Positions 1 through 28,434 of a stretch of DNA of 64,000 nt are shown in pieces. How positions within the stretch are numbered: position 1 is the stretch's first letter; every line of letters begins with the position of its first letter. A program made the translations under genes and the position numbers. The stretch comes from Deltaproteobacteria bacterium (GTDB lineage Bacteria > Myxococcota_A > UBA9160 > PR03), in the NCBI GenBank assembly GCA_035063765.1, contig JAPSFT010000001.1:71497-135496 (forward strand), read 5' to 3'. The notes under the pieces are model-generated. The model was not told where the DNA came from, did no database searches, and saw only the letters and a program-made list of their open reading frames with translations.

Positions 1-1
1 C

Positions 2-640
2 GGCACCGACGACGAGAAGACGCTCTACGCGCTCGGCGTGAGCGTCGCCCGCAACCTCGAGCCGTTCGCGCTGAGCCCCGAGGAGGTCGACTTCGTGGTG
101 GCCGGGCTGCGTGACGAGCTGGCCGGCAAGGAGTCGGCAGTGCCCCTCGACCAGTTCGGCCCCCGGATCCGCACGCTCGCGGAGACGCGGGCCACGGCCA
201 CCGCCGCCAAGGAGAAGGAGGCCGGTCAGGCCTTCGCCGCCCAGGCCGCCGCCGAGCCGGGCGCCGTCAAGAAGCCCTCCGGGCTCGTGATCCGCACCAT
301 CCAGGAGGGCAGCGGCGCCTCCCCTGGCCCCGACGACAGCGTGAAGGTCCACTACACCGGCACGCTGCGCGACGGCAAGGTCTTCGACAGCTCGGTGAAG
401 CGCGGCGAGCCCGCCCAGTTCAAGCTCGGCGGCGTGGTCCCGTGCTGGACCGAGGCGCTCCAGACCATGAAGGTCGGCGGCAAGGCCCGGATCATCTGCC
501 CGGCCGAGATCGCCTACGGCGACCGCGGCTTCCCGGGCTCGATCCCGCCCGGCGCGACGCTCGCCTTCGAGGTCGAGCTGCTCGAGATCGTGAAGCCCGC
601 GGCGGCAACGCCGCCGGCGGCGGAGACGCCGGCCGAGTGA
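2..640 (+). CDS. FKBP-type peptidyl-prolyl cis-trans isomerase, 5' end missing
   Basis: The reading frame is open from the first bases of the window, so the start lies outside. The visible N-terminal part (TLYALGV and following helices) matches the dimerisation domain of FkpA/Mip-type isomerases. An Ala-rich linker follows, then a complete FKBP domain over about the last 110 residues (VHYTGTL, DGKVFDSS, GEPAQFKLGGVVPCW, IAYGDRG, IPPGATLAFEVELLEI). The family folds proteins in the periplasm by isomerising prolyl bonds. A signal peptide would be in the missing part. The short Pro/Ala tail is typical of this GC-rich genome. Confidence 0.9.
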   Translation, partial: GTDDEKTLYALGVSVARNLEPFALSPEEVDFVVAGLRDELAGKESAVPLDQFGPRIRTLAETRATATAAKEKEAGQAFAAQAAAEPGAVKKPSGLVIRTIQEGSGASPGPDDSVKVHYTGTLRDGKVFDSSVKRGEPAQFKLGGVVPCWTEALQTMKVGGKARIICPAEIAYGDRGFPGSIPPGATLAFEVELLEIVKPAAATPPAAETPAE

Positions 641-647
641 CCGTACG

Positions 648-680
648 GGGCCGGACGGAGGCTCGTCCTCCGCCCGGCCC
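648..680 (+). terminator. Hairpin terminator after the FKBP gene
   Basis: Eight bases after the isomerase stop there is a stem GGGCCGG-A-CGGAGG / CCTCCG-C-CCGGCCC with a 5-base loop (13 paired bases and one mismatch). No T-run follows, so it may act as a strong stem without a U-tract or as a partial attenuator. Confidence 0.5.
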
Positions 681-718
681 GCGCACCCCTGCCGGCGAGC
701 AGCCGGAGGAGACGAGCG

Positions 719-1792
719 TTGGCGGGCGAAACGCTGCGCTACGGGGTGATCGGGACCGGCATGATGGGCTGCGAGCACATCCGCAGCCTCGCGCTCCTGC
801 CCGGTGTCGAGGTGACGGCGATCGCCGATCCCCACGAGACCAGCCGCGGCTGGGCGCGCAGCGCCCTCGCGGGGCGTGCGGTCGAGGAGTACGCGGACTA
901 CCGCGAGCTCCTGCGCCGCGCAGCGGTGGACGTGGTCGTGGTCGCCACGCCGAACCACACCCACCACGAGGTGCTGCGCGCGGTCTTCGCGACGCACAAG
1001 CACGTACTCGTCGAGAAGCCGCTCTGCACCGAGGTCGGCGACTGCAAGCGCGTCGTCGAGGCAGCGGCACGCCACCCGGGGATCGTCTGGGTGGGCATGG
1101 AGTACCGCTACGTCCGTCCGCTCGCGCGCCTCGTCGAAGAGGTGCACGGCGGCGCGATCGGACGCCTGCGCATGCTGGCGATCCGCGAGCACCGCTACCC
1201 GTTCCTGCCGAAGGTCGGCGACTGGAACCGCTTCGCCCGCTACACGGGCGGCACCCTGGTCGAGAAGTGCTGCCACTTCTTCGATCTCATGAACCTGATC
1301 GCGCGCGAGCGGCCCTTGCGGGTCTATGCCTCGGGCGGCGCCGACGTGAATCACCGCGACGAGCGCTACGGGGGCGAGGTCCCCGACATCCTCGACAACG
1401 CCTTCGCGATCGTCGATTTCGAGGGCGGGGCCCGCGCGCTGCTCGACCTGTGCATGTTCGCCGAGCACTCCACCCACGAGATGGAGGTGGCCGCGACCGG
1501 CGACGCCGGCAAGGCCGAGGCCTTCGTGCCAGCGCAGCGCCTCGTGCTCACCCGGCGCGACCGCGACGAGCCCGCGACGATCGCCTTCCCGCCCGACCCG
1601 GGGCTCGCGGGCTCGGGCGCCCACCACGGCGCCACCTTCTTCGAGCACCTGGCCTTCCGCGACGCGATCCGCAGCGGCGGGCGGCCGGTGGTCTCGGTCG
1701 AGGACGGGGCGCTCGCCGTCGCGATGGGCGTTGCCGCCGAGCGCTCCGTGCGCGAGCGGCGGCCGGTGGAGCTGCGCGAGCTCGGGTCCTGA
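719..1792 (+). CDS. Gfo/Idh/MocA family NAD(P)-dependent oxidoreductase
   Basis: A 357-residue protein starting at TTG (719), preceded by GGAGGA at 705-710. The N-terminal Rossmann domain shows GxGxxG (GTGMMG near residue 12) and the family motif EKPLC near residue 100. The C-terminal half is the alpha/beta substrate domain (WNRFARYTGGTLVEK, H-bearing CCHFFD). These enzymes oxidise or reduce sugars, inositols or related polyols; the substrate cannot be told from sequence. It sits alone between the isomerase and a lipoprotein gene. Confidence 0.88.
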   Translation: MAGETLRYGVIGTGMMGCEHIRSLALLPGVEVTAIADPHETSRGWARSALAGRAVEEYADYRELLRRAAVDVVVVATPNHTHHEVLRAVFATHKHVLVEKPLCTEVGDCKRVVEAAARHPGIVWVGMEYRYVRPLARLVEEVHGGAIGRLRMLAIREHRYPFLPKVGDWNRFARYTGGTLVEKCCHFFDLMNLIARERPLRVYASGGADVNHRDERYGGEVPDILDNAFAIVDFEGGARALLDLCMFAEHSTHEMEVAATGDAGKAEAFVPAQRLVLTRRDRDEPATIAFPPDPGLAGSGAHHGATFFEHLAFRDAIRSGGRPVVSVEDGALAVAMGVAAERSVRERRPVELRELGS

Positions 1793-4442: not shown

Positions 4443-4519
4443 TGGCGCCCCCGGGCTGACTCGAACAGCCGACACGCGGTTTAGGAAACCGCTGCTCTAT
4501 CCATCTGAGCTACGGGGGC
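4443..4519 (-). tRNA. tRNA-Arg (anticodon CCT)
   Basis: A full cloverleaf on the minus strand: acceptor stem GCCCCCG/CGGGGGC, D-arm GCTC...GAGC, anticodon stem GCGGT/ACCGC with loop TTCCTAA (anticodon CCT), T-arm GGCTG/CAGCC, discriminator G and encoded CCA. The bases 4481-4519, anticodon loop to 5' end, belong to a repeat that is also found at 13688-13728, so this half was exchanged when the neighbouring element integrated. The integrase gene reads toward the tRNA on the same strand, 44 bases upstream. Confidence 0.95.
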
Positions 4520-4521
4520 GG
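4481..4521. repeat. Left attachment repeat, inside tRNA-Arg
   Basis: A 41 bp sequence identical to 13688-13728. It begins exactly at the anticodon loop and runs through the D-arm and the 5' acceptor strand to 2 bases beyond the tRNA 5' end. It completes the functional tRNA with the chromosomal 3' half (4443-4480). Confidence 0.93.
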
Positions 4522-4563
4522 AAGTCCAGAACCTAACGAAAGTCGGGCACTTGGCGCGAGCGC

Positions 4564-5829
4564 TCATGCTGACGCTCCGTCCGTTTTCGCGAGGTGGGGG
4601 GACTTGTGGGGGGACTCGATCGCCTCGATTCGCGCGATCAGGTCCGCCGGGACCTCTCCCGGCTCCACCTCGAGCGCCCGGCGGTAGGCCCCGGCGCCGG
4701 CCCAGGTGGCGTAGTGGCGCGCCGTCGTGGCCACGTCCTGATGCCCGAGTTGGCCGCTGATGTACCCGAGCTGGATGCCCGCGGTCAGGAGTTGCGAGGC
4801 GAACGTATCGCGAAGATCCTTCGGCGTTCGGCCCGCGAGCCCGGCGGCAGCGCAGATCCCCTCGAAGTGCCGCCCCTGGTAGTTGCGGTGGATGTAGCCC
4901 GGGAGCACGCGGGCTGAGGGCTCCGGCTGCCCCTGCGCCACGTAGAACTCCCGCAGGAGCCGCCGCAGGCGGCGCGAGAGCGCCACCTCCCGGCTTCGGC
5001 CGCTCTTCGGGGCCTCCTCGTACTTGCCCCGGGCCACGCTCGCGCGGATCACGAGCGCCCGGGTCACGTCGTCAGGGTCCCCGCCCCAGCGCACGTCCCG
5101 CCAGCGAAGCCCGGCCACCTCGCCAGCGCGCAGGCCAGCGTCGAGCATGAGCAGGGTCGCGACGTGCGAAGCCTGCGCTTCGCGCCGGGGGCGCCCGTTC
5201 CCGAAGCGCCGCTCGTACTCCACGCGCGAGGCGGTCACCAGCGCCCCGAGCTGCGCCGGCTCCTCGATCGGCCGGATGCTGCCGCCCTGCGCGGCCTCGG
5301 CCCGGCCCCGCTTCGAGCGGCGGCGCCGGCGGAGCGTCCCCCGGAACGTGTCGACCGGGTTCGCGTCGATCAGCTCGAGGTCCACGGCGTAGCCGAACAC
5401 GCCCGAGAGCGCGGAAAGCAGCGTCAGGCCCGTTCGCTCGTGTCGCCCGCGGCCTTCCACCTCGCGATACCACCAGTCGAGCAGGGTCGCGCGCCGGATG
5501 TCGCTCGCGCGCATCGCGCCGAAGTAGCGGCGAAGCTCACCGTCCGCGCCGAGCACGCGGTCGCGATCGTCCCGCGTCGTGCCCGACAGGTGGCCGGTCG
5601 CTTCCTTGAGGTAGCGCTCGGCCAGGGCGCCAAAGGTGTGCGCGGCCTCGCGGCCGGCGCGCTCCGCCCGCTTCCGCAAGTAGGCATCCCGCACCGCCGC
5701 CGCCGCATCCCAGTCGGCCTCTTCGGTGGAGAAGCGCACGCGCTGGCCGTCGAGCACGGCCTCGAAGTAGACCACGGCCCCGCGTCGGGTCAGGTTCCGG
5801 TACTTCGCGCCCTTCGGCTTCGCCTTCAT
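4564..5829 (-). CDS. int: Tyrosine-type site-specific recombinase (integrase)
   Basis: A 421-residue protein. The ATG at 5829 is chosen because GAGGAG lies just upstream; an upstream ATG at 5940 lacks support. There is an arm-binding type N-terminal region, a SAM-like core-binding domain, and a catalytic domain with box I DAGLRAGEVAGLRW, a Lys region (APKSGRSREVAL), LRDTFAS in place of the usual HxxR segment, LGHQDVATTARHY with His and the terminal nucleophile Tyr. The Asp replacing His in LRDTF occurs in many phage integrases. Its 3' end overlaps a repeat pair that may be an arm site, and the gene points at the tRNA it integrated into. Confidence 0.95.
   Translation of the reverse strand: MKAKPKGAKYRNLTRRGAVVYFEAVLDGQRVRFSTEEADWDAAAAVRDAYLRKRAERAGREAAHTFGALAERYLKEATGHLSGTTRDDRDRVLGADGELRRYFGAMRASDIRRATLLDWWYREVEGRGRHERTGLTLLSALSGVFGYAVDLELIDANPVDTFRGTLRRRRRSKRGRAEAAQGGSIRPIEEPAQLGALVTASRVEYERRFGNGRPRREAQASHVATLLMLDAGLRAGEVAGLRWRDVRWGGDPDDVTRALVIRASVARGKYEEAPKSGRSREVALSRRLRRLLREFYVAQGQPEPSARVLPGYIHRNYQGRHFEGICAAAGLAGRTPKDLRDTFASQLLTAGIQLGYISGQLGHQDVATTARHYATWAGAGAYRRALEVEPGEVPADLIARIEAIESPHKSPHLAKTDGASA
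4594..4616. repeat. Left arm-type repeat pair (GTGGGGGGACT x2)
   Basis: Two copies of GTGGGGGGACT, 12 bases apart, inside the 3' end of the integrase gene and about 73 bases from the attachment core. The same double motif, in the same orientation, occurs at 13550-13572 near the other end (21 of 23 bases identical). The position and pairing suggest integrase arm-binding or excisionase sites. Confidence 0.6.
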
Positions 5830-5962
5830 GGTTGCTCCTCGTTCGGCGCCGCATCCGCGGGCACCCGTCGGGTGAGAGGCTACGTCAGAAACGGCCCAGC
5901 CCAGCAACCCCCCTTGCGCGCATCTCGGGTGCGCCGGCACGTTCGGGCTCGGGGGGTGCGGC

Positions 5963-6475
5963 TTGAACGCCGATCAGGCCGTGTGGCGCTACCACCGCCT
6001 GCGCGCGGGTCTCTCGGCGCCGCGGAGCCAGGATGCCGCCGCCGTGCGCGGCTATCTGCTCGCGGCGCGCTGCACCTGCGGAGGCGAGGAGCGCCACGAA
6101 GTGCACAGCGCGCGCGGGCGCGCATGGGTCATGCGCTGCGCGCGCTGCGGACGCGCCTGGCGCCGGGAGCTCGCCTTCGTGCCGCGCGCCGCGATCCAGG
6201 GCGGACGCACCGTGCGCGAGCCCGCGGCGCTCGCCGATCTGGCGACGCTCGCCCGCTGCCTCGAGACGCTCGACCCCTGGCAGCGGCGCGTGATCGAGCA
6301 CTACGTCGCCTGGCCGGGCCCGGGCCGCGCCGACACGGGCATCGCACTCCTCGCGAGCGAACACTGGGCCGAGGCGCCCTTCGCGTGGACGCAGCACCGG
6401 GTCCGCCTGCTGCTGCGCACGGCGCGCGAGGCGCTCGACGCCGAGCTCGCCCGCCGCGGCCTCGCGCAGCACTAG
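5963..6475 (+). CDS. Zinc-ribbon / HTH-like protein of the element
   Basis: A 170-residue protein, the only rightward gene in the element, starting at TTG 5963 and divergent from the integrase. Two CxC/CxxC knuckles (CTCG near residue 37 and CARC near 59) suggest a zinc ribbon. The C-terminal 65 residues (LDPWQRRVIEHY...TQHRVRLLLRTAREAL) resemble a sigma-region-4 or ArpU/Q-type helix-turn-helix. The combination suggests a transcription activator or antiterminator of late genes, but this is inference; no named family is certain. Its 3' end overlaps the stop of the convergent gene at 6472. Confidence 0.55.
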   Translation: MNADQAVWRYHRLRAGLSAPRSQDAAAVRGYLLAARCTCGGEERHEVHSARGRAWVMRCARCGRAWRRELAFVPRAAIQGGRTVREPAALADLATLARCLETLDPWQRRVIEHYVAWPGPGRADTGIALLASEHWAEAPFAWTQHRVRLLLRTAREALDAELARRGLAQH

Positions 6476-6696
6476 GAGCGCCCCTCGATTCGCGCCTGCA
6501 AGCGCTCGCGCATCGCCTCCGGGTCGAGCTCGAGCGCCGCGCACCAGAACTCGCAGCGCGGGCCGCGCAGGAAGTCGAGCGCCGCAGCGCGGGCGGCCTC
6601 CGCCGCGGCGGGCCCGGGAGGCCGCATGGCGTCGTTCACGGCGTGCTCGAGGAGCCCCGCCGCGAGCCGGCGGACGTCCTCGCCGCTGAGCTCCAT
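6472..6696 (-). CDS. Small conserved-looking phage-type protein, 74 aa
   Basis: Starts at ATG 6696, two bases after the stop of the upstream terminase-like gene, so it is probably translationally coupled. It is helical, with a CEFWC segment near residue 49. The function is not known. The position directly after the packaging-type gene suggests a head or packaging accessory role. Confidence 0.55.
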   Translation of the reverse strand: MELSGEDVRRLAAGLLEHAVNDAMRPPGPAAAEAARAAALDFLRGPRCEFWCAALELDPEAMRERLQARIEGRS

Positions 6697-6698
6697 CG

Positions 6699-7163
6699 TC
6701 ACGGCGCCTTCCGCTTGCGCGCCACGAGCCGCGGGCGCGGCGGCGTCGCGAGCGCCTCGAGCGCCTCGCGGACGAGCTCGCCGAGGGCGGCCTGCAGCGC
6801 CGGCACCGATGCGAGGCCTACGAGCAGCGGGGCCCACCGCGCAGGGAGCGCCCGGAGGTGCCGGGCGACGTGCGCCCTCGCGCCGGCGACAGCCTCGCGC
6901 GCGGCCTGCGCGCCGACGAGCTCGCTGCGGAGCCGCTCGTTCGCCATCGCCTGCGCGTCGGCCTTCTCCTTCGCGAGCCGCGTCCACTCCCGGAGCCGGA
7001 CCGTGCGCGCGTCCTCGCGGCTGCGCGCCCGGGCCTCGAGCACGGCCTGGGCCGCCGCCAGGTCCTCGCGGGTGCGGATCGGGCGCACGATGCCGTCGGC
7101 CAGGAGGCGCCGAAGGTGCCGCTCGCTGATGCCGAGGGCCGTCGCGGCCTCACGCTGGCGCAT
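6699..7163 (-). CDS. Putative terminase small subunit, Nu1-like
   Basis: A 154-residue protein. Residues 4-28 form a MerR/Nu1-like winged helix-turn-helix (REAATALGISERHLRRLLADGI), followed by a charged coiled-coil (ARSREDARTVRLREW, AKEKADAQAMANERLRSEL) and a basic C-terminus. This HTH-plus-coiled-coil layout is typical of Nu1-type small terminases, which recognise cos DNA. The gene lies 3' of the capsid gene. It could also be a different HTH regulator. No large terminase is present in the element. Confidence 0.55.
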   Translation of the reverse strand: MRQREAATALGISERHLRRLLADGIVRPIRTREDLAAAQAVLEARARSREDARTVRLREWTRLAKEKADAQAMANERLRSELVGAQAAREAVAGARAHVARHLRALPARWAPLLVGLASVPALQAALGELVREALEALATPPRPRLVARKRKAP

Positions 7164-7206
7164 GGTCTACACCCCCTCGCGTCGGACGGACGGACACGGG
7201 TTTCGC

Positions 7207-7234
7207 GGGCCGGCGCCTAGGCCTAGCCGGCGCG
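7207..7234. other. Palindromic tract upstream of the small-terminase-like gene
   Basis: Between two genes of the element lies CTAGGCCTAG, a perfect palindrome, flanked on both sides by the self-complementary sequence GCCGGC. It may be an operator or an attenuating hairpin ahead of the terminase-like gene. Confidence 0.3.
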
Positions 7235-7285
7235 CGCGCGTACCCGCTTTCCGAACCCCCAGGAAGGACCCGCCCTCGCTGCTCC

Positions 7286-7588
7286 TCAATGGAGCCGGCC
7301 GCGCGCGAGGAGCGCGCCGAGCCGCGGCGCCGTTGCGGGGTCGGCCAGAAGCTCCGCCCCCTTCTCGCGCGCGACGAGGTCGATGCAGGCATCGACGAGC
7401 TCGTGTGCCTCGACCGCGCGCACCGGCTCCGCCTCGAGCGGGAGCAGGGCCCCGTAGAGGCGCAGCCCGCCCGCCAGGAGCGCCGCCAGGTGCTCGGGCT
7501 CGAGGAGTGCGCCGAGCTCGCGCAGCGGGATCAGCACCGGCTCGGGCGTCTCGTAGGCGGCGCGCAGCCGCGGCAGATCCCATTGCAT
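7286..7588 (-). CDS. Uncharacterised small protein downstream of the capsid gene, 100 aa
   Basis: An acidic, mostly helical 100-residue protein (ATG 7588) rich in Leu and Ala, with no recognisable motif. In phage head modules the gene directly after the capsid often encodes a head-tail connector or decoration protein; nothing in this sequence proves that. The neighbours on the same strand are the protease-capsid fusion upstream and the terminase-like gene downstream. Confidence 0.5.
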   Translation of the reverse strand: MQWDLPRLRAAYETPEPVLIPLRELGALLEPEHLAALLAGGLRLYGALLPLEAEPVRAVEAHELVDACIDLVAREKGAELLADPATAPRLGALLARGRLH

Positions 7589-7667
7589 CCGTGTGTACCT
7601 CTCGAGCTCACCCGCCCGCGCCGGCCGTGATGGGGGCAGCCGGCGCGAGCGGGTGGCCCTGACGCGC

Positions 7668-9467
7668 TCAGGTGGTCGTTGCGTCCGTCAGGATCGCGAA
7701 CGACTCGGGGTGCCGGACCGCCACGTCGACGTCATAGAACGCGCGCAGCACGAGGCCGCCCGAGTCGGCGAGCGTGATCGGATCAGTCGTCACGTCGAGC
7801 ACGCCCCATTCGCCGATCAGCAGATCGCGCCAGTTGCCGAAGATGATGGCCGAGCAGACGGCGCCGCTCGAGCCCTTCACGAGGTTCGAGGGCACCTGGT
7901 TCGAGACCGCGGCGCGGCTGCCGTTCAGGAGCCCGAACCCGGGCAGCGTGCCCGCCGGGTGCTCCCACACGAATTCGGCGGTATCCGTGGCCTTCTCCGT
8001 CGTCTTGAGCTTGCTACGCACTTTCGCGTTCGTGAGGTAGGCGAGCGAGCCCACGTCGGCGTTGTCCGCCGCGACCTCGCGCTCGAGCGCCACGACGTGC
8101 GCCCAGGTGGGCGGCCCGCCGTTCGCGCCGATGGCGACGCTCCCGACGCCCGTCGTCCCGAGGATGCCGAGCGGCTGGTTGCCGGCGCCCGAGCCCGCGA
8201 TCGCGGCCAGGTCGACCGCGAGGCCGAGGACGAGCGCCAGGTCGTTGCGCACGAGATGCTCGATGGCCGGCGTACCCTGGAGCAGCATCTTGCGCGTCAC
8301 GTTCGTTCGCGCAGCGACCGTCTTCGGCGTCATCGAGACCGCGTCGAAGCCGGAGTCCGAGGCGGTCACCGTGCCGCCCTCGGCGAGCCATTGCGCCGAG
8401 GCCGCACCGCTCTGGCGCGGGATGTCGACGTCGCCGACGAGCCCCGGGAGGATCGTCGCGCCGAGGGCCCGCACCGCCGCGTTGTTGCGCAGGAGGTCGA
8501 TGAACGAGCCCGCGAGGAGCTCGGTCCCGACGAGCGCCGCGCCCGCCGCGCCGCCGCCCTTCTCGATCGTGCGCGCCTGCGGCGCCGTCAGCACGTCCGG
8601 CGGAACGAAGAACCCGCGCGCCTCGCGGCCGAGCTGCTTCGCGACCGCTTCGGACGCCTCGAGCTCGAGGCCCGCGCTACGCCAGTCGCGCGAGGCGAAG
8701 GCCTTCGCCGCGCGCACGAGCGAGTAGCGCTCGATCTCGCGCCCGCCCATGCCGATGGTCGGCATCTCGAGCGGCTTGGCGGGCGGCACGGCGTTCTTCA
8801 GCGTCCAGGCCTTGAAGTCGCCGCTCGCCCACTCCTCGTTGATCGCGCGCTCGCCCTGCTCGCGCACGTTCCATCGCTCCGCCACCGCGCGGATCTCGGC
8901 GATCCGCTCGCGCTCGAGCTGCGCGGGAGTCTTTCCGTTGGGTTCCATGATCTCGATCCTCTCCTGCGCGCGGCCGATGCCCACGGTCGGGTCGGCCGCG
9001 ATCGCCACAAGCGACACCTCGAACGGCGTCCACCTGGTTGCCGTGTAGGTGTCGCGCTCCTCGCCTTCCTGGCGCTCGACTTGGTCGAGCGAGTACCCGA
9101 TCGAAATCTCCGGTAGGAGGCCCTCGAGGACGTCCGCGAAGAGCTCACGGGCGCGGCGCCCGTTCCCGAACCGCAGGCGCCCGCGCAGGCGCCGGCCCTC
9201 GAGGCGGATCGCCTCGACGCGACCGATGGGCTCGCGCGGATCGTGCGCGAAGAGGAGCGCCAGGCCCCGCTTCGCTCGCGAGAGGTCGACGGCCTCGCGG
9301 GTGTGCCGGAGCACCTCGCGCCCGTACGCCCGCTCGACCGGCTCCTCGCTCGAGAGCGAGGCCTCGACGACGCGCTCGGTGTCGCCCGACGCTCGCTCGC
9401 CGAGCTCGAGCGTGAAGACGCGACGCGCCACGCTACCCCGGGCCGGAGGCCCGCCAGGCTGGCTCAT
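7668..9467 (-). CDS. Fused prohead protease and HK97-fold major capsid protein
   Basis: A 599-residue protein from ATG 9467. Residues 1-165 match the S78 (HK97 gp4-type) maturation protease: catalytic His in LLFAHDPREPIGRV and catalytic Ser in LPEISIGYS. A helical delta-like scaffold segment follows (about 175-270, EPNGKTPAQLERERI). Residues about 300-599 are an HK97-type major capsid domain (AQWLAEGGTVTASD, MTPKTVAARTNVTRKML, GAGNQPLGIL, DVAVRHPESFAIL). The fusion would deliver protease, scaffold and shell as one polypeptide. The gene is the strongest phage marker in the element and looks intact. Confidence 0.92.
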   Translation of the reverse strand: MSQPGGPPARGSVARRVFTLELGERASGDTERVVEASLSSEEPVERAYGREVLRHTREAVDLSRAKRGLALLFAHDPREPIGRVEAIRLEGRRLRGRLRFGNGRRARELFADVLEGLLPEISIGYSLDQVERQEGEERDTYTATRWTPFEVSLVAIAADPTVGIGRAQERIEIMEPNGKTPAQLERERIAEIRAVAERWNVREQGERAINEEWASGDFKAWTLKNAVPPAKPLEMPTIGMGGREIERYSLVRAAKAFASRDWRSAGLELEASEAVAKQLGREARGFFVPPDVLTAPQARTIEKGGGAAGAALVGTELLAGSFIDLLRNNAAVRALGATILPGLVGDVDIPRQSGAASAQWLAEGGTVTASDSGFDAVSMTPKTVAARTNVTRKMLLQGTPAIEHLVRNDLALVLGLAVDLAAIAGSGAGNQPLGILGTTGVGSVAIGANGGPPTWAHVVALEREVAADNADVGSLAYLTNAKVRSKLKTTEKATDTAEFVWEHPAGTLPGFGLLNGSRAAVSNQVPSNLVKGSSGAVCSAIIFGNWRDLLIGEWGVLDVTTDPITLADSGGLVLRAFYDVDVAVRHPESFAILTDATTT

Positions 9468-9841
9468 TGGATGAGTCTCGTTCGGTGAGCTGCGGCGCGG
9501 GTTGCTGTGCTCGCCGCGCTCGGGGCCGGCCGCCAGGCCGGGTGCGGAGTCGCGATCGCGCGCAGGGTGCGCCTGGAGCCCTCGTCCCGCCGGCGGCGAG
9601 CTCCTCGGCGCGGTCCCCCGCGCGGGGTCGTCTCGCTACCTCGGGTCGCGATGGGCTGGGCTCCCGAGCCCATCGCGTCGGCCCCGCGAGTCCGCCGCCC
9701 TCCCGGGCGCCGCCCTCGCGGCGGCTTCCGATCCGCGGCCGGGTCGCTCCCTCCCGGGAGCGACACGCCACCGCGGCCGGCTGCTTGACGGCAGAGGCTA
9801 TCACGGCACGCCAGGAGCGCGAGCATTCGCGTGGCCCTCCT
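9468..9841. other. Structured non-coding tract between annealing protein and capsid genes
   Basis: 374 bases with no convincing gene. It contains an 11 bp perfect stem with a 9-base loop (CGCGATGGGCT 9647-9657 / AGCCCATCGCG 9667-9677), a 9 bp stem with a 4-base loop (GTCGCTCCC 9743-9751 / GGGAGCGAC 9756-9764) flanked by direct copies of CCGCGGCCGG (9733-9742, 9771-9780), and a 12 bp palindrome CCCCGCGCGGGG at 9616-9627. It could hold the head-gene promoter, an RNA, an antitermination site or a packaging site. Confidence 0.5.
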
Positions 9842-10639
9842 TCAGTCGAACGGGTTCCCTTCGCTGGCGGCCGCCGCGCCCGGGCCGTCGGTGAAGGCGC
9901 CCGCGATCGCGGACACGAGCGCGTCGTAGTCGCGCGCGAGCACGTCGCCGGAGTGCTCGTAGCCGTGCGTCGCGAGGAGCGCGCGCACGCGCGCCTCGAC
10001 GTCGGCGCGGTCGAAGCCCTGCGCCGTGCCGGCCTCGGCAGCGACGGCGAACAGGCGCCTACGCTGCGCGTCGCTGATGCGCCGCTCGGCGCCGCCGCTG
10101 CGCGCCGGCCGCTCCGGCGCGCGCGACTGGCGCCGGGGCTCGCGCTCCTCGCGCGCCTCGGCCGAGCGCCGCGAGGGCGGCGCGCAGGCGGCCTGGCCGT
10201 CGTCGTCGTCGTCGGTCGCGATGCCAAGGAGCGCCGCCAAGGCGTAGCGCCGGGCGTAGGTGAGGGCCGAGCCGACCCCCTGCGCGTCAGCGCGCGTGAC
10301 GGGTAGCAGGAGCTCCGTCTCGAGCGCGGCACCCGATGCGTGCAGCACGATCGTGCGCACGCCCGCGCTCCGTGGGTCGGCGACGAGCGGTATCTGCACG
10401 ATGGCCAGCGCGTGCCGCGCGAGCACCGGGCGCGCGAGCTCGAGCACCTGGCCGAGCGTCGCGTAGGCGTAGGAGTAGTTGCCCTTGTCGGTGCGGACGT
10501 CCGCGCGGGCGTCGGCGGCCACGTTGCGGAGCTCGCCGAGGGCGGACACGAGCGCCGCCGCGAGCGTCGGCGCGACGCTGGCGCCCGGGTCGACCGGCGG
10601 CGGGGTCGGCTCCTGGGGGGGCGTCGGGTCATCGGTCAT
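9842..10639 (-). CDS. erf: ERF-family single-strand annealing recombinase
   Basis: A 265-residue protein (ATG 10639). The core GNYSYAYATLGQVLELARPVLARHAL, near residues 45-70, and GVGSALTYARRYALAALLGI, followed by an acidic DDDDDG, are hallmarks of the ERF superfamily, which anneals single strands during phage replication and recombination. A basic linker leads to a C-terminal helical domain ending in the short NPFD tail. The start overlaps the upstream zinc-protein gene by 11 bases. Confidence 0.9.
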   Translation of the reverse strand: MTDDPTPPQEPTPPPVDPGASVAPTLAAALVSALGELRNVAADARADVRTDKGNYSYAYATLGQVLELARPVLARHALAIVQIPLVADPRSAGVRTIVLHASGAALETELLLPVTRADAQGVGSALTYARRYALAALLGIATDDDDDGQAACAPPSRRSAEAREEREPRRQSRAPERPARSGGAERRISDAQRRRLFAVAAEAGTAQGFDRADVEARVRALLATHGYEHSGDVLARDYDALVSAIAGAFTDGPGAAAASEGNPFD

Positions 10640-11003
10640 GGCGTGTCTCCCTCTGGCGCATGAGCGCCTCGATCTGCCTGCGCCCGCCGGCCCGCCGCGG
10701 CTGGGGTCTCGGCCTGGCGGCGAGCCCACGCAGGCGGTCGGTCTCGAGGGCCTCGCAGCGGGTGCAGCGCACCGGCGCCCCGAGCTGCGGGTGCCGGCGG
10801 CGGAAGGTCGGCTCGTCGCAGGCGCAGCACTCGACGAGCGGCAGGTGGGCGTCGTCACGCCGGGACACCTCCCCCTCTTGGGTGGCCCGGCTCGGGTGTC
10901 CCGAGTGTCCCCCCTCCGTAGGAGGGGACACCTCGGGACACCGGGACACCGGGGGTGTCCCGAGTGTCCGGGACACCTCGGGACACGCGGGACACTCCAG
11001 CAT
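10629..11003 (-). CDS. Zinc-binding small protein overlapping an iteron tract
   Basis: A 124-residue frame whose ATG overlaps the helicase stop (TGATG at 11001-11005). The C-terminal half has two Cys pairs (CCAC and CTRC) spaced like a zinc ribbon. The N-terminal part is low-complexity, encoded by the GGGACAC repeat cluster, and repeats CPEVS twice. A shorter version starting at an internal GTG (near 10867) just before the zinc ribbon is possible. The role is unknown; it lies between helicase and annealing protein in the replication block. Confidence 0.5.
   Translation of the reverse strand: MLECPACPEVSRTLGTPPVSRCPEVSPPTEGGHSGHPSRATQEGEVSRRDDAHLPLVECCACDEPTFRRRHPQLGAPVRCTRCEALETDRLRGLAARPRPQPRRAGGRRQIEALMRQRETRHDR
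10862..10995. repeat. GGGACAC heptamer cluster (iteron-like)
   Basis: Ten exact heptamers in 134 bases: GGGACAC at 10862, 10925, 10935, 10943, 10970, 10980 and 10989, and its complement GTGTCCC at 10896, 10905 and 10955, with one imperfect copy at 10964. Most neighbouring copies are 8-10 bases apart, close to one helical turn. The cluster lies directly downstream of the helicase gene, the position of the replication origin in several satellite families. Confidence 0.75.
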
Positions 11004-12493
11004 CAGAGCACCTCCAGGCCGCTCTCGGGCAGCAGGCGGAATCGATCCGGCAGCTCGTCGGCGATCCGGCGCGCGAGCGCCTTCGCGTCCGTGCGGCGCT
11101 TGCCCGAGGGCTTCCTCTCGGGCGCGATCTCGAACAGGTGCCGCGCCAGGTCGGTCACGGTGTAGGAGCCCGACTCGAGGTCGAGCAGGCGTGCCCGGAG
11201 CGCCTCGGCCTCGGCGCAGGTCGGCGGCCCGGCCAGCTCCCAGCGGATCACACGGTCGCCGTGGGTCGCCGTCGCGAAGTAGAGCTCGGAGAGCGGGGGC
11301 ACGTCGTTGACGACCGCGTCGAGCATCCGCACGCCCGGCTCGATCTCCCAGAGGGTCGCCACGCTGCGCGCGAGCTGCGCCAGGACGGCGCTCCCGCGGA
11401 TCTCCTCCATCCGCTCGCCCTTCGTCAGCTCGGCGGCCGGCTTCGCCTTCGGCGGGCGCTTGCGCGGGTGGTGGATCAGGACGCCCGACGGGCCGAGCGA
11501 CTCGGCGATCCGGTCGAGCTGATCGATCGCGAGGCGCGCGCCCTCGTCGTCGTTCACGGTCAGTCCCGGCGGCAAGAAGTGCTGGTAGGGGTCGATCACG
11601 AACACGTCGTAGCGGCCGTCCGCGATCGTGTTGCCGAGCACCTCCACGCCATGATCGTCGAGCGGGAGCGCGCGCTTCTCCTTGCCGATGATCGCGACGC
11701 GGCCGTCCATCCATGCGCCGTCCGGGGCGAGCGCGGCGAGCTTGCGGACGATTGACAAGGTGGTGTCGTCCTTGCTCACGATCAGGGCGCGCATCGGGTC
11801 GCGGCCGTCGTGGCGGCCCGTCCAGGGCTCGCGGCCGTAGATCAGGTCCACGACTACCCGGACGATCGAGGTCGTCTTGCCGATGCCTGTCTGCCCCGCG
11901 TAGACGGTCGTCAGGCCGGGGTAGAGGACATGCGTCGCGACGGGGACGATCGAGGGCGCCGCGGCTAGCGTGGCGAGCTGCTCGCGGGTGGGCACCAGCT
12001 CGACGTAGCTCCGGATGCGCGGCTCCTGCGCGCCCAGCTCCGACGCGATCGCGCCGAGCTCCCGGCGCGCCACCTCGCGCAGATCGTCGGGCGTCGCGGG
12101 CTCGACGAGCCGCGCCGCCAGGAGCCGCTCGCGGCGCTCGAGCGCCTCGCGATGGACGGCGCGCGCGTGCGCCAGGACGTGCGCACCCGTCGCCGCGCCA
12201 TCGGCCAGCTCGGCGAGCCGCACCGCCGCACGGTGCGCGTCGCCCGTGGACTCGCGCGACATCGCGGCGTGTAGGGTCGGTAGGTCGATCGGGTCGCCGC
12301 GGTCGGCCAGGTCGAGCATCGCCTGCGCGACCCGCGCGAGGAGCGGGTCGGCGAGGTCCGCGGGCGTCGCGATCGCGAGCGCCTCGCGCACCCGCTCGGG
12401 GTCGCCCCCCACGAGGAGGCCGCCGAGCAGGGACTCCGCCGGCGACGGGATCGCGCGGTCGGGGGGCGGCGCTACACTTGCGGGCACCTGCAT
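11003..12493 (-). CDS. Replicative helicase-like ATPase (DnaB-N domain plus RepA-type motor)
   Basis: A 496-residue protein from ATG 12493. Residues 15-110 resemble the DnaB N-terminal domain (SPAESLLGGLLVGG, ADRGDPIDLPTLHAAM). From about 185 there is a RecA-like motor with Walker A GQTGIGKTT, Walker B VFVIDPY, a GVLIHHPRKR sensor segment and RGSAVLAQLARSV, as in RepA-type helicases of plasmids and phage. The C-terminus looks like a winged helix. It would unwind the element's origin. It is translationally coupled to the zinc protein gene. Confidence 0.88.
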   Translation of the reverse strand: MQVPASVAPPPDRAIPSPAESLLGGLLVGGDPERVREALAIATPADLADPLLARVAQAMLDLADRGDPIDLPTLHAAMSRESTGDAHRAAVRLAELADGAATGAHVLAHARAVHREALERRERLLAARLVEPATPDDLREVARRELGAIASELGAQEPRIRSYVELVPTREQLATLAAAPSIVPVATHVLYPGLTTVYAGQTGIGKTTSIVRVVVDLIYGREPWTGRHDGRDPMRALIVSKDDTTLSIVRKLAALAPDGAWMDGRVAIIGKEKRALPLDDHGVEVLGNTIADGRYDVFVIDPYQHFLPPGLTVNDDEGARLAIDQLDRIAESLGPSGVLIHHPRKRPPKAKPAAELTKGERMEEIRGSAVLAQLARSVATLWEIEPGVRMLDAVVNDVPPLSELYFATATHGDRVIRWELAGPPTCAEAEALRARLLDLESGSYTVTDLARHLFEIAPERKPSGKRRTDAKALARRIADELPDRFRLLPESGLEVL

Positions 12494-12544
12494 CCGTGTC
12501 CTCGACCCCGCCGTGGTCTCGTCGCCGCGGCGGGGTCACTCGTC

Positions 12545-12817
12545 TCAGCCCGCGCTCCTCGCCTCGCGCTCGAGCACGCGCTCGGCGACGGCCTCGGCGC
12601 GCGCCGTCGTGCGCGCGGCCTCGCGGCGCCACCACGCCTCGACGTCGACGCGCAGGACGCGGATCGCGCGCCCGCGCCGGACGCCGGGGATCTCGCCGCG
12701 GCGGATCAGCTCACCCAGGTACGCGCGCGACAGGCCGTACACGCGCTCTACCCCGCGCATGGACAGCGTCGCGCGGTCGTGGTCGCGCTCGATGATCGGT
12801 CGAGTGTCGCGGGGCAT
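12545..12817 (-). CDS. AlpA/excisionase-like helix-turn-helix protein
   Basis: A 90-residue protein from ATG 12817 with a MerR-type winged HTH (MRGVERVYGLSRAYLGELIRRGEIPGVRRG, shown here only to locate residues 20-49) followed by VDVEAWWRR, the standard ending of AlpA/Xis-type DNA-binding domains. In satellites and integrative elements such proteins act as excisionase or activate the integrase. It lies directly upstream of the helicase. Confidence 0.78.
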   Translation of the reverse strand: MPRDTRPIIERDHDRATLSMRGVERVYGLSRAYLGELIRRGEIPGVRRGRAIRVLRVDVEAWWRREAARTTARAEAVAERVLEREARSAG

Positions 12818-12875
12818 GGGCGCACACTGCGCCGATTGCGCGCGGCGTGCACGTCAGAACTTGGTGCCACCTTTT

Positions 12876-13448
12876 TCATCGTGCGCGCGGCGGCAGCGGC
12901 TTCCGAGGTGTCGGGTCGTGGTCCCGGGCTGCGTGGAGCGCCGCCAGGAGCGCGCTCTCACTGTTCGCCGCGTAGAGCTCGCGGAGCCTGGCGATCGCGG
13001 CTCCTGGGGCCAGCGGGCAGCCCGGGACGCCCACCTCGAGCGGAGCGCGCGGGCCGGATTCGATCGCGAGGCGCACGATGCCCTGCCCCTGCGTGAGCGC
13101 GCGGTAGGCGGCGATGAGCTCGCGCGGGTCGCGCTTGCGGGGCCGCTGCCAGCCCATCGCGCGCTGGACGCGCTGGAGCTTCTGGCGGTCGGTTGCCTCG
13201 GAGCCCAGCACCTCGAGCGCCAGGCGCTCGCGTGCCGCGCGATCGTCGCCCTGCGCGTGGAGGCGGCCGAGCTCGGCCGCCATCTCCTCGCCTAGCGCGC
13301 GCAGCGCAGCGAGCACGGTCGCGCGCGAGGCGCCGGTCTCGATCGCCTGGCCGAGCGCCTGGTAGGCCGCTGCCGTTCGCGCGCGGCCGCGGAAGCGGCC
13401 GATGCTCTCCGCCATCCGGCGGAGCCGTCGCATCTCCGGGTCGGACAC
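12876..13448 (-). CDS. Uncharacterised helical protein, first gene of the element's left-directed block
   Basis: 190 residues if translation starts at GTG 13448, which has GAGGAG 10 bases upstream; the frame remains open to 13610. It is rich in Arg, Ala and Leu, with helical segments (RARTAAAYQALGQAI, RKRDPRELIAAYRAL) and no Cys/His cluster. No family is recognised. Its position at the head of the replication block suggests a regulator or replication accessory. Confidence 0.5.
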   Translation of the reverse strand: MSDPEMRRLRRMAESIGRFRGRARTAAAYQALGQAIETGASRATVLAALRALGEEMAAELGRLHAQGDDRAARERLALEVLGSEATDRQKLQRVQRAMGWQRPRKRDPRELIAAYRALTQGQGIVRLAIESGPRAPLEVGVPGCPLAPGAAIARLRELYAANSESALLAALHAARDHDPTPRKPLPPRAR

Positions 13449-13687
13449 GCTGCCGCTGCTCCTCGCGGCGCTCCGGTGGGAGCCTCGGGGCAGGGAGCGG
13501 AGCGGCTCCCGTTCGGCTGGCCGGCCTAGCCCCGAGGCGAATCGCTCAGGTGGGGGGACTACTGGGGGGACTCCCCTCATTCGTCGCCACACCGGGCCAT
13601 GTAAGGCCATTGCGAGGGGATGCGCAACCCCGCGGAATCACAGGAAGTCGAGTAGAGACGCAGAGATGCGTCAGACACTCGAGCCCA
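13449..13687. other. Right-end control region of the element
   Basis: Non-coding stretch between the first element gene and the right attachment repeat. It holds the right arm-type repeat pair (13550-13572), a GACGCA-GAGA-TGCGTC hairpin at 13657-13672, and probably the promoter of the leftward operon. Confidence 0.45.
13550..13572. repeat. Right arm-type repeat pair
   Basis: GTGGGGGGACT followed 12 bases later by CTGGGGGGACT, same orientation as the left pair at 4594-4616, and 115 bases from the right attachment core. Candidate integrase or excisionase arm sites. Confidence 0.6.
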
Positions 13688-13728
13688 TTAGGAAACCGCT
13701 GCTCTATCCATCTGAGCTACGGGGGCGG
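13688..13728. repeat. Right attachment repeat: orphan 5' half of tRNA-Arg
   Basis: Identical to 4481-4521. It holds the 5' acceptor strand, D-arm and anticodon loop of the tRNA on the minus strand, but no 3' half follows. It is the chromosome's original 5' half, still joined to the original upstream sequence. Confidence 0.93.
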
Positions 13729-13737
13729 GAGGCGGGA

Positions 13738-13767
13738 AGGCTAGCGACCGTGGGGACTCGTTGCGAA
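13738..13767 (-). promoter_or_regulatory. Possible original tRNA-Arg promoter, now driving a half tRNA
   Basis: On the minus strand TTCGCA and TAGCCT are separated by 18 bases and lie just upstream of the orphan tRNA 5' half. A weak match, supported mainly by its position. Confidence 0.3.
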
Positions 13768-13904
13768 CGATCCTCGTGGCGATCCCTCTCGGGTGAGCGA
13801 AGGGGACGGAGCCGAAGGCAGCGCCCATCAGCTTGTGGACTCGTTCCTTCGAGTTCGAGTCGGAACGACGCTCCCGTGCGTCGAAGAGGTGACGGGGGTG
13901 CGCC

Positions 13905-14327
13905 GTGCCTGGTCTCCTCCTCGCCGCCCTGCGGGTCGGCTCCCTACTCGTGCTCGGAGCGCCAGCGCTCGCGGGTGACGACTACACCGGTTCCATCGCG
14001 CCGGGTCTGCACCCGCGCCTGACGGCCGCGACGGTCGCGGATCTCGTCGGGGCCGGCGGCAGCGCCGCGCCCGCGGGCGTGCGCCGGATCACGGCGTTGG
14101 AGTGCGTCCGTGGGGACGACATCGGGCGAGCGGGAAGCACGGCGCCCTTCTGGATCGTACGTGTGGAGGGCCATTTCGTGAACCTGCGCACGCCGCCGGG
14201 GTGCCCCGCGCAGGTGGCTCCCGAGGGCTTCTACGTGATCGACGATGCGACCGGCAGCATGGTCGCCCGGGGATTCGTCGGCGGGCGATTCACTGGGCCT
14301 TGCGACCGGCTGCAGAAGGGTCGGTAG
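13905..14327 (+). CDS. Small secreted protein of unknown function
   Basis: A 140-residue protein beginning at GTG 13905 with a hydrophobic signal peptide (LLLAALRVGSLLVLGAPALAG) and likely cleavage near residue 23. The mature part has three Cys residues (ECVRGD, PGCPAQ, GPCDRL) and a compact, probably beta-rich core. No family is recognised. It is the first host gene past the element and converges with the methyltransferase gene. Confidence 0.55.
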   Translation: MPGLLLAALRVGSLLVLGAPALAGDDYTGSIAPGLHPRLTAATVADLVGAGGSAAPAGVRRITALECVRGDDIGRAGSTAPFWIVRVEGHFVNLRTPPGCPAQVAPEGFYVIDDATGSMVARGFVGGRFTGPCDRLQKGR

Positions 14328-14375
14328 ACGCGGACCGGTCTCGGCTCGGCCGCGCTGAACGCGGTTCGCGCTGCG

Positions 14376-14846
14376 CTACAGCCAGCGCCGCGTCGAGCGC
14401 TTGTAGGCGAGGTACTCGTCGCCGAACTTGGCCTCGAGGTAGGCCTCCTCGTGACGGATCGCCGTCGCGTAGACGATGGCGAGGACGAGCGGGATCGCGA
14501 GCAGGACCCAACCGTTCCCCCAGCCCCAGCCGATCGCGAGGAGCAGCAGCGCCATGCCCACGTACATGGGATTGCGCGAGCGGCGGTAGACGCCGCTCGA
14601 GACGATCGAGGGCGTGCTCTTCCACGGCTTCGGGTCCTGGCCGGTGCGGCGGAAGAGGCCGAGCGCGCCGGCCAGGAAGGCGACGCCGAGCGCCGCACCG
14701 AGCATCGCCCCCACCGCCCGCGCGGCGGGCGAGAGCGGAAGCCGCAGGGGCACGATCCCGTGGAGCCCGCCAGCGACGAGCAGGGCGAGCAGGTACACGA
14801 GCGGCGGGGGCAGCCGGACCTTCGCACCGTCGCGCTCGGCCGTCAT
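14376..14846 (-). CDS. Isoprenylcysteine/phospholipid methyltransferase-type membrane protein
   Basis: A 156-residue integral membrane protein with about four hydrophobic segments. The conserved C-terminal signature is clear: GVYRRSRNPMYVGM, then RHEEAYLEAKFGDEYLAYKRSTRRW, as in the ICMT/PEMT family that binds S-adenosylmethionine at the membrane face. Short bacterial members act on small lipids or amines; the substrate here is unknown. It may share a transcript with the secreted protein gene upstream (15407). Confidence 0.8.
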   Translation of the reverse strand: MTAERDGAKVRLPPPLVYLLALLVAGGLHGIVPLRLPLSPAARAVGAMLGAALGVAFLAGALGLFRRTGQDPKPWKSTPSIVSSGVYRRSRNPMYVGMALLLLAIGWGWGNGWVLLAIPLVLAIVYATAIRHEEAYLEAKFGDEYLAYKRSTRRWL

Positions 14847-14858
14847 CGCGGCGCCGCT

Positions 14859-15407
14859 CTAGTTCGCGCCTTCGGTGTTGGTGCGCTGCGCTTCGTCGAT
14901 CTCCTCCTGGGAGAGGCCGATCTCGCGCAGGCGCTTCTGGATCTCTTCGGGCGACATGCGGATCTGGACCATCTTGAGCAGATACCTGGGATCCCCTTCG
15001 CGCGGCTCGAAGGAGAAGACGACGGCGCGGTCGGTGGGGATCGCGGCGACCGCCGACTTGAAGCCCTCCTTGGTGCCGCTGTTGTCGAGGCCGCCGCCCT
15101 TCGAGGCCTTGATGACGGTGCGCTTGAGCACGCTGCCCTCGGGCACCACCTCGAGCTCGAGCTCCTCGCCGCTCTTCAGGCCCGGGGCCGGCTTGCCGGC
15201 GACGCCGCCGCTGCCGAAGCCGCCCGACACCTTGGGGCTCGTGATCTTGACCTTGAAGACGCTCCGGGCCTCGTCGTAGCCGAGCAGCATGCCCTCGGCG
15301 CCGTAGCGCTTGGCCTCGGCGGCCCGGGCGGCCGGCGGGGCGACGAGCAGCGGTGCCAGCGCGAGGCCGAGCACGAGGAAGGCGGGGAGCGGGCGGGCGC
15401 GCAGCAT
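14859..15407 (-). CDS. Exported protein of unknown function
   Basis: 182 residues with a signal peptide (cleavage near AARAAEA) and a good AAGGAG site before ATG 15407. The mature protein has a Gly/Ser-rich region around residues 60-75, a beta-type middle (GEELELEVVPEGSVLKRTVIK) and a C-terminal amphipathic helix (SPEEIQKRLREIGLSQEEIDE). No family is recognised. Periplasmic location is inferred. Confidence 0.6.
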   Translation of the reverse strand: MLRARPLPAFLVLGLALAPLLVAPPAARAAEAKRYGAEGMLLGYDEARSVFKVKITSPKVSGGFGSGGVAGKPAPGLKSGEELELEVVPEGSVLKRTVIKASKGGGLDNSGTKEGFKSAVAAIPTDRAVVFSFEPREGDPRYLLKMVQIRMSPEEIQKRLREIGLSQEEIDEAQRTNTEGAN

Positions 15408-15500: not shown

Positions 15501-16025
15501 CTAGTAGCGGAGCAGCACCTGGACGTCCTCGACGCCGAGCTGCGCCCGGCCGCCGAGGGCCGTCAGCTCGACCAGGAACGAGCAGCCCACCACCTCGGCG
15601 CCCGCCTCGCGTGCGAGCTGCACGGCTGCCGCCGCGGTGCCGCCGGTCGCGATCAGGTCGTCCACGACGAGCACGCGCTCGCCGGGCCGCAGCGCGTCCT
15701 CGTGCATCTCGACGGTGTCGCTACCGTACTCGAGGTCGTAGGTGACCCGCCGGGTCTTCCAAGGGAGCTTGCCGGCCTTGCGCACCAGCACGAAGCCGGC
15801 CTCGAGCGCCAGCGCGACGGGCGGGCCGAAGACGAAGCCGCGCGACTCGATGCCGAGCACCTTCTGGACGCCACGCCCCCGGAAGGGCTCGACCAGGCCG
15901 TGCACCGCGGCGGCCAGGGCGCGCGCGTCGGCCAGCAGCGGCGTCACGTCGCGGAACAGGATGCCGGGCTTCGGGAAGTCGGGAACGTCGCGGACGAAGG
16001 CGCGCAGATCGACGGCGTCGGGCAC
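15501..16025 (-). CDS. apt: Adenine phosphoribosyltransferase
   Basis: 174 residues, the usual length for the family, from GTG 16025 with AGAGGAG upstream. It shows the N-terminal FPKPGILFRDVTPLL, the IESRGFVFGPPVA segment and the PRPP loop VLVVDDLIATGGTAAA. It converts adenine and PRPP to AMP in purine salvage. The gene follows a peptidase gene on the same strand and reads away from it with a short gap. Confidence 0.95.
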   Translation of the reverse strand: MPDAVDLRAFVRDVPDFPKPGILFRDVTPLLADARALAAAVHGLVEPFRGRGVQKVLGIESRGFVFGPPVALALEAGFVLVRKAGKLPWKTRRVTYDLEYGSDTVEMHEDALRPGERVLVVDDLIATGGTAAAAVQLAREAGAEVVGCSFLVELTALGGRAQLGVEDVQVLLRY

Positions 16026-16049
16026 GGGGCTCCTCTCTCGTGGGAACGC

Positions 16050-16781
16050 TCAGGGCAGGCAGACACGCGGGTCGCGCGGGCGATTGCTGCGCCGGATCTC
16101 GAAGTGCAGGTGCGGCGCCGTCGCGTTTCCGGTCCGCCCGACGCGCGCGATCGGATCGCCCCGCTCGACGAAGTCCCCCTCCTCGACGAGGTTGTCGTCG
16201 TTGTGGGCGTAGACCGTAGCCCAGCTCCCGAGGTGCTTGATCACGACCACGCGGCCGTAGGCGCCGAGCTCGTCGCCCGCGTAGACGACCTTGCCGGCCT
16301 CCGCGGCGTGGATCGGGGTGCCGCGCCGGGCGGCGACGTCGATCCCGTCGTGGGGACGCCCGTGGCGCTCGCCGTAGGCCGAGGTGAGCGTGCCGAGCAC
16401 GGGCCACTCGAAGCGCAGCCCGTGCTCCCGGGCGGCGTCCGAGCAGTCGCCTCCCCAGCCCTCGCGTCGCTCGAGCGTGTCGGGGCCGCGCGACGCCGCG
16501 GCGCTCACCGCCGGAGCGCCGGTGCGGCCGTCGCCCTTCGGGACCCAGAGCCGCTGGCCGATCTGGAGCGTGCGGACGTCGTCGACCCGGTTCACGCGCC
16601 GGATCACCTCGGCCGGCGTCCCCGTGGCCTGCGAGATGCGCCACAGGTTGTCGCCGGCACGGACCACGTACCAGGCGCCGGGGCCCGCGCCCTTCGGACT
16701 CGAGCGGCAGCCCGCGCTCCCGGCCAGCACGGCGAGGCCAGCGAGCGCGAGCGCCGCGTGGGCCCGTGCTACGCGGCCCAT
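16050..16781 (-). CDS. NlpD/EnvC-like LysM and M23 peptidase lipoprotein
   Basis: The ATG at 16781 overlaps the end of pcm and gives a signal peptide with lipobox ending AGC (residue 25). A LysM domain follows (WYVVRAGDNLWRISQATG...QIGQRLWVP), then a C-terminal M23 metallopeptidase-like domain (HGRPHDGIDVAARRGTPI, HLHFEIR). A GTG at 16814 is an alternative start. It binds peptidoglycan and either cleaves it or activates amidases, as NlpD does. The pcm-nlpD order is common in proteobacteria. Confidence 0.88.
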   Translation of the reverse strand: MGRVARAHAALALAGLAVLAGSAGCRSSPKGAGPGAWYVVRAGDNLWRISQATGTPAEVIRRVNRVDDVRTLQIGQRLWVPKGDGRTGAPAVSAAASRGPDTLERREGWGGDCSDAAREHGLRFEWPVLGTLTSAYGERHGRPHDGIDVAARRGTPIHAAEAGKVVYAGDELGAYGRVVVIKHLGSWATVYAHNDDNLVEEGDFVERGDPIARVGRTGNATAPHLHFEIRRSNRPRDPRVCLP

Positions 16782-17425
16782 CCGTGCCGGCCGACGAGGT
16801 CCACGAAGCGGCACGGCCCGAGCGTCTCGGCGCGCAGGCGGCCCTCACCCGTGCGCCGCACGCGCACGAGCCGCTGCCCGCCGCGCGGCCCGACGGGCGC
16901 CACCAGGCGCCCGCCCGGCGCGAGCTGCGCGAGCAGCGGGCGCGGCAGGTCTGGCGCGCCGGCCGTCACCACGATCGCGTCGTAGGGGCCGTCGTGCGGG
17001 CGTCCGAGCGAGCCGTCCCCCAGGTGGACGACGACGTTGCGGATCCCGAGCCGGTCGAGGGCGCGCCGCGCCGCCGCGGCGAGCCGCGGCAGCCGCTCGA
17101 TCGAGACGACCCGCTCGGCCAGCATGCCGAGCACCGCCGCCTGGAAGCCCGAGCCGGTGCCGATCTCGAGCACCCGCTCGCGCCCGGCGAGCTCGAGCGC
17201 CTCGCTCATGCGCGCGACCGTGGACGGCGCCGAGATCGTCTGGCCGTCGCCGATCGGCAGCGCGTGGTCCCGATAGGCCTGGGCGTGGAGGGCCTCGGGC
17301 ACGAGCTGGTGTCGCGGAAGGGACTCGAGCGCGGCGAGCACGCGCCGATCCCGCACCCCGCCGCTTGCCAGCCGCTCCACCATGCGCCGGCGCGCGCCGC
17401 GCAGCTCCGCGCCTGCGGTTTCCAC
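16769..17425 (-). CDS. pcm: Protein-L-isoaspartate O-methyltransferase
   Basis: 218 residues from GTG 17425. Family motifs are clear: LPRHQLVPEALHAQAYRDHALPIGDGQTIS (residues about 37-66), SAM motif I VLEIGTGSGFQAAVL, and the post-I region RVVSIERLPRLA. It repairs isoaspartyl damage in ageing proteins using S-adenosylmethionine. Its 3' end overlaps the start of the NlpD-like gene. Confidence 0.95.
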   Translation of the reverse strand: METAGAELRGARRRMVERLASGGVRDRRVLAALESLPRHQLVPEALHAQAYRDHALPIGDGQTISAPSTVARMSEALELAGRERVLEIGTGSGFQAAVLGMLAERVVSIERLPRLAAAARRALDRLGIRNVVVHLGDGSLGRPHDGPYDAIVVTAGAPDLPRPLLAQLAPGGRLVAPVGPRGGQRLVRVRRTGEGRLRAETLGPCRFVDLVGRHGWAA

Positions 17426-17500
17426 CTCGCCCCCCCCGGCGCCGCAGCTTGGGGCAGCGCGGGGGGATTCGCAAGTTGACCGCTGAAGTTCCTGGAATTC

Positions 17501-28389: not shown

Positions 28390-28434
28390 TGGTCGGGCCG
28401 GCGGGATTCGAACCCGCGAGCTCCTGAACCCCAT
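28390..28434. repeat. Displaced 3' half of tRNA-Pro (attachment scar)
   Basis: 45 bases matching 29741-29785 with a single mismatch: CCA end, acceptor 3' strand, T-arm and part of the anticodon arm on the minus strand. The 5' half is absent. It marks the far end of an old tRNA-Pro insertion. Confidence 0.88.

Follow-up and report, generated by a model that had tools for sequence, protein, structure and literature searches.

An integrated element in the 5' half of tRNA-Arg(CCT)

The window analysed here is a stretch of 64,000 nucleotides (74% GC) from the genome of an uncultured Myxococcota-type bacterium. Near its left end, a tyrosine recombinase gene and several phage-like genes lie between two copies of a direct repeat, one of which is part of a tRNA-Arg(CCT) gene. 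The features of the locus are the following:

4443..4519, minus strand: hybrid tRNA-Arg(CCT) (ARAGORN; Rfam tRNA, 61 bits; repeat boundaries)
4481..13687, no strand: integrated element, 9207 bp, the interval between the repeats
4481..4521, no strand: att copy, integrase side; 41-bp direct repeat, tRNA positions 1-39 plus 2 bp upstream
4530..4540, minus strand: predicted element-borne tRNA-type promoter, extended -10 TTCGTTAGGTT (position weight matrix from real tRNA promoters)
4564..5829, minus strand: tyrosine recombinase (integrase), reading toward the tRNA 5' end (PF00589, E=2.9e-15; phrog_1, E=3e-41)
4593..4616, plus strand: putative arm-type sites, integrase side, GGTGGGGGGACT-TG-TGGGGGGACT, inside the integrase C-terminal codons
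6699..7163, minus strand: terminase small subunit-like (TerS-like) gene (phrog_57, E=1.3e-13)
7668..9467, minus strand: fused prohead protease and major capsid protein (PF05065, E=5.6e-39; PF04586, E=1.6e-8; phrog_617, E=3e-146)
9842..10858, minus strand: ERF-like single-strand annealing protein (PF04404, E=2.4e-19)
11003..12493, minus strand: DnaB-like helicase (PF00772 and PF13481)
13549..13572, plus strand: putative arm-type sites, distal end, GGTGGGGGGACT-AC-TGGGGGGACT, oriented as at 4593
13688..13728, no strand: att copy, distal; orphan 5' half of the tRNA, which has kept its original chromosomal upstream DNA
13738..13743, minus strand: original host tRNA promoter, -10 TAGCCT (matrix score 11.35; matches the native upstream sequence of G001, a genome of the same genus)

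The repeat is exact; within the tRNA it starts at the 5' end and runs through the whole 7-nt anticodon loop (positions 33-39), the hybrid tRNA taking positions 1-39 from the element and 40-77 from the chromosome. This agrees with an earlier note on this DNA, which had placed the attachment site in the tRNA 5' half and had counted 44 bases between the tRNA (end at 4519) and an integrase reading toward it; the integrase ORF is intact (421 aa), with its stop at 4564. A tyrosine integrase thus lies inside the interval from the tRNA to its displaced fragment, as defines tRNA-targeted integrative elements, and the element does not have the classical 3'-half form, in which the repeat takes in the tRNA 3' end and the gene retains its host promoter.

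Integrase and packaging/capsid genes are present without the full virion set, the gene criterion for phage satellites, and among the element ORFs tested no portal, large terminase (TerL) or tail gene was found. Judged by its genes alone, the 9.2-kb element looks like a phage satellite. It resembles the PICI satellites in being a small tRNA-integrated element with an integrase, TerS-like and capsid genes and in the missing portal, large terminase and tail genes, a likeness of gene content only, and differs from them by its ERF and DnaB-like genes. Near-identical paired motifs, GGTGGGGGGACTnnTGGGGGGACT, occur at both ends of the element, about 110-140 bp from the core, and GGGGGGACT is confined in the whole window to these four places. 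The pairs at 4593 and 13549 look like integrase arm sites, of which the former doubles as C-terminal codons of the integrase (SPHKSPH).

The native upstream region lies on the far side of the element

We looked for the empty site in close relatives, a comparison that the earlier note had proposed. In G001 the left flank, the tRNA and the sequence on the right (orphan) side are contiguous: the genes of window positions 1-1785 are found on one side of the tRNA, and matches to 13727-13746 and from 14903 onward on the other. Moreover, a cluster of phosphoribosyltransferase, LysM/M23 peptidase and PCMT genes (15504-17500, right of the element) is conserved beside tRNA-Arg(CCT) in G001 and G002, and partly in more distant genomes. 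Since both the G001 upstream matches and this cluster fall on the right, it is the native upstream region that the element displaced, and this region has stayed with the orphan half at 13688. The displaced host -10 box (TAGCCT) now precedes the orphan half and points into the element. The repeat and the G001 empty site therefore bear out the earlier proposal that both the 5' half and all DNA upstream of it come from the element, the opposite of what most of its relatives do. The reverse history, in which the copy at 4443 and its upstream DNA would be native and the copy at 13688 brought in by the element, could draw on the plausible -10 box present at both copies. It is contradicted by the empty site, which matches the right-hand upstream sequence, and by the conserved phosphoribosyltransferase, M23 peptidase and PCMT genes on the right, and we give it almost no credence.

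About 1.1 kb to the right of the orphan half (13747-14860), starting just past its -10 box, is absent from G001. Its one arm-like GTGGGGACT, at 13750, may be left over from an earlier element; a search of the stretch for an integrase relic or a third tRNA half found neither.

A probable tRNA-type promoter between integrase and tRNA

In this order, tRNA-Arg(CCT) genes have the extended -10 motif TnCGnTAGnnT some 17-20 nt upstream, with a weak -35. We built position weight matrices from 43 other tRNAs of the same genome, from the tRNA-Arg(CCT) upstream sequences of 29 relatives, or from both, the tRNAs being gathered by Rfam search and by ARAGORN on the loci. The element sequence immediately preceding the tRNA is TTCGTTAGGTTCTGGACTTCC, and a TAGGTT box lies at 4530-4535, inside the 44-bp gap and 16 nt before the tRNA. 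Results showed that this box scores 8.6-12.2 across the matrices, at the usual position. Among real tRNA promoters it stands at the 56th (own-genome), 86th (relatives) and 78th (both) percentile, with P = 0.0037, 0.0006 and 0.00035, respectively, against random element 42-mers. A rebuilt matrix gave 10.58 (P 0.0009) at a distance of 18 (median 19), and with it ten related 3'-side elements score at most 6.5 in the equivalent gap. The -35 of the element is non-consensus (3/6), and most native tRNA promoters here are also devoid of a strong -35. Considering that a lineage-type -10 box scores high at the normal distance and that the ten 3'-side elements have none there, a replacement tRNA promoter borne by the element is the most likely reading, the activity of the box being predicted from its sequence.

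The earlier note had seen no good promoter here and had suggested that tRNA-Arg(CCT) expression depends on integrase transcription. The first statement holds for a strict E. coli sigma-70 scan of the gap, which returned no promoter, and does not hold against the tRNA promoters of the lineage itself. We set the strict scan aside as uninformative in DNA of 74% GC; the native host-side promoter fails it too. The second statement is countered by the lineage-typical box 16 nt upstream of the tRNA and within the element.

Two other accounts of how the tRNA is expressed have to be considered. The tRNA could be cut from integrase read-through transcripts with no promoter of its own, a host dependency as described for archaeal pTN3-type integrations. 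The co-directional integrase only 44 bp away speaks for this, as does a gap in which the strict scan detects neither promoter nor terminator; the lineage-typical -10 box at the right distance speaks against it, and so does the native promoter that fails the same scan, and we regard this account as rather unlikely. Alternatively, the hybrid tRNA could be poorly expressed or not at all, a promoterless site being tolerated because AGG is read by two tRNA-Arg(TCT). Two such genes are indeed present elsewhere in the assembly and could read AGG by wobble, and AGG is rare (about 3 per 1000 codons, a rough estimate from the window). On the other hand, the hybrid tRNA is intact and scores well, the promoter-like box is present, and the assembly (~96% complete) yielded no further tRNA-Arg(CCT), so that poor expression seems still less probable than read-through. 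A separate, element-borne promoter is the reading that the sequence favours over expression from the integrase promoter. As no terminator was found between integrase and tRNA, integrase read-through may nonetheless add to tRNA expression.

Relatives of the integrase use the 3' half of tRNA genes

A scan of the contigs with the integrase sequence alone gave no matches; an alignment query gave 29 loci. Across 79 genomes of the order, the relatives share 36-56% identity with the integrase. Twelve of them have a convergent tRNA at the integrase 3' end, on the 3' side (Met x3, Thr x2, Arg x3, Lys x2, Phe and Leu). At every locus where both ends could be mapped (7/7), the repeat is the tRNA 3' half and in most cases starts at the edge of the anticodon loop; at C47 of G050 it is shorter because the distal copy has diverged. 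All mapped integrase relatives except one use the 3' half.

The window repeat ends at the last base of the loop, and its overlap with the 3'-side kind is essentially the 7-nt loop, which corresponds to the expected 7-bp overlap. Judged from these boundaries, the crossover in the window and in the 3'-side relatives is the same, with opposite polarity. In both polarities the 3' end of the integrase adjoins the tRNA half supplied by the element. A sister satellite in G001 (C44:57857-66945; L120, L130) sits at the 3' half of tRNA-Leu(GAG), and its capsid, TerS-like and p170 proteins are 56%, 49% and 55% identical to those of the window element. In the integrase tree, the 5'-side members (the window and G062, described below) are not grouped with support; therefore, one and several switches of polarity are both compatible with it.

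At G050:C4:956-1003 (L112), 436 bp separate an integrase from a tRNA 3' half that lacks the matching 5' half. This may be attP in a circular form, or the remnant of a tandem arrangement. Elsewhere in the window, positions 33-77 of tRNA-Pro(GGG) are repeated (45 bp, 98%) at 28390-28434 and 29741-29785, 1351 bp apart. This is a shrunken 3'-side scar, likewise starting at the anticodon loop, and the earlier note was right to take it as the usual 3' case.

A model for integration with opposite polarity

We consider it probable that a satellite-like element entered the anticodon loop of tRNA-Arg(CCT) with a polarity opposite to that of its relatives and brought its own replacement tRNA promoter. 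The repeat, the empty site, the crossover point common with the 3'-side relatives and the promoter-like box are read from the sequence; the working promoter and the reason why polarity could flip are inferred. In this model, the tyrosine recombinase would integrate the 9.2-kb element at the loop, and the element would rebuild the tRNA by bringing the 5' half together with a promoter in the 44 bp between integrase stop and tRNA, where the TAGGTT box would act as working tRNA promoter. The anticodon stem is a palindrome around the 7-bp overlap TTNNNAA, which reads TTCCTAA one way and TTAGGAA the other, and polarity could flip on this account. The tRNA would then depend on about 40 bp of element DNA and not on integrase transcription, a host dependence comparable with that of ordinary integrations supplying the 3' half, and excision would rejoin the tRNA to its native promoter.

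The usual explanation for why tRNA genes are safe integration sites is that the host promoter survives the event. If a bacterial element can occupy the front of the gene and bring along a lineage-matched tRNA promoter, as predicted here, promoter retention is not a strict rule. Bacterial tRNAs have been described as keeping their own promoter with very few exceptions (PMC8371274). For archaea, integration into the 5' half is on record (pTN3), and for bacteria it is described as a rare event; it is thus not new in kind. In a limited literature search we found neither a carried tRNA-type promoter nor a sister pair of opposite polarity in one genus. Such a pair, at the 3' half of tRNA-Leu and the 5' half of tRNA-Arg, makes the polarity flip at a palindromic anticodon loop testable.

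Known systems share parts of this arrangement. In the pTN3/TKV4-type integrations of Thermococcales, attB is likewise the tRNA 5' half and the restored tRNA is cut off from its original promoter (PMC5495485, PMC8371274); pTN3 shares 41 bp with its tRNA (PMC5495485). There, however, the integrase gene has the att site within it and is broken in two when the element integrates, and expression of the tRNA is attributed to the integrase promoter (PMC8371274), whereas the element here has an intact integrase and a separate predicted tRNA-type promoter in between. Classical integrations at the anticodon-loop sublocation (Williams 2002, described in PMC8371274) also have a tyrosine recombinase, a crossover in the loop and a fully restored tRNA, but supply the 3' half, while the element here supplies the 5' half and the upstream region. 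In the tRNA-dependent lysogeny of mycobacteriophage Fionnbharth (PMC10865867), the element also supplies tRNA function including its own promoter, as predicted here; that phage, however, brings a whole tRNA gene, and its 10-bp core destroys the host copy, whereas the contribution here is limited to the 5' half and its predicted promoter. The search strategy of Islander already allows for displaced 5' fragments (PMC4383910); island finders limited to 3' fragments would miss 5'-side elements.

Other candidate integrations on the 5' side

In G062, tRNA-Sec has on its 5' side an integrase related to that of the window (46%) and reading into the tRNA, and the downstream DNA is syntenic with the tRNA-Sec loci of other genomes. 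TAGTAT lies 14 nt before this tRNA (P about 0.008), and the general matrix score is weak (P 0.15). G042 has two relevant contigs: in one, tRNA-Arg(CCT) has its host upstream region, syntenic with congeners; the other shares this tRNA and its 3' flank (163 bp, 98.8%) and has upstream of it an integrase reading away, and the gap there scores at chance (P 0.6). In G050, the conserved upstream cluster is flanked by an orphan tRNA-Arg(CCT) 5' half that stops at the loop. In all three genomes one end of the element is seen. An orphan 5' half in G011 (C156) is without conserved neighbours and was counted as weak, and no match to the element genes of relatives was found alongside the orphan halves of G050 and G011. 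A candidate in G030 (C117) stops precisely at tRNA position 39; because a break in the assembly could explain this, it was left uncounted. The loci of G062, G042 and G050 together suggest repeated use of the 5' side, with tRNA-Arg(CCT) as its most frequent target. The high-scoring promoter box of the window is a single case among the 5'-side elements.

A broader idea is that several satellites of the order dock 5' of tRNA genes in a promoter swap: the tRNA would get the element promoter, and the displaced host promoter and 5' half could drive co-directional element genes only when integrated. If so, the element could sense its integration; we hold this as a speculative and on the whole unlikely extension of the model.

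The motif AAGTGCC[CT]nA occurs near the att ends of several elements (L197 at 6185, L198 at 4133, the distal end of L118/L128), and a similar form is found in the integrase-tRNA gap of the window (4540-4555) and of G062; it is perhaps a candidate accessory binding site.
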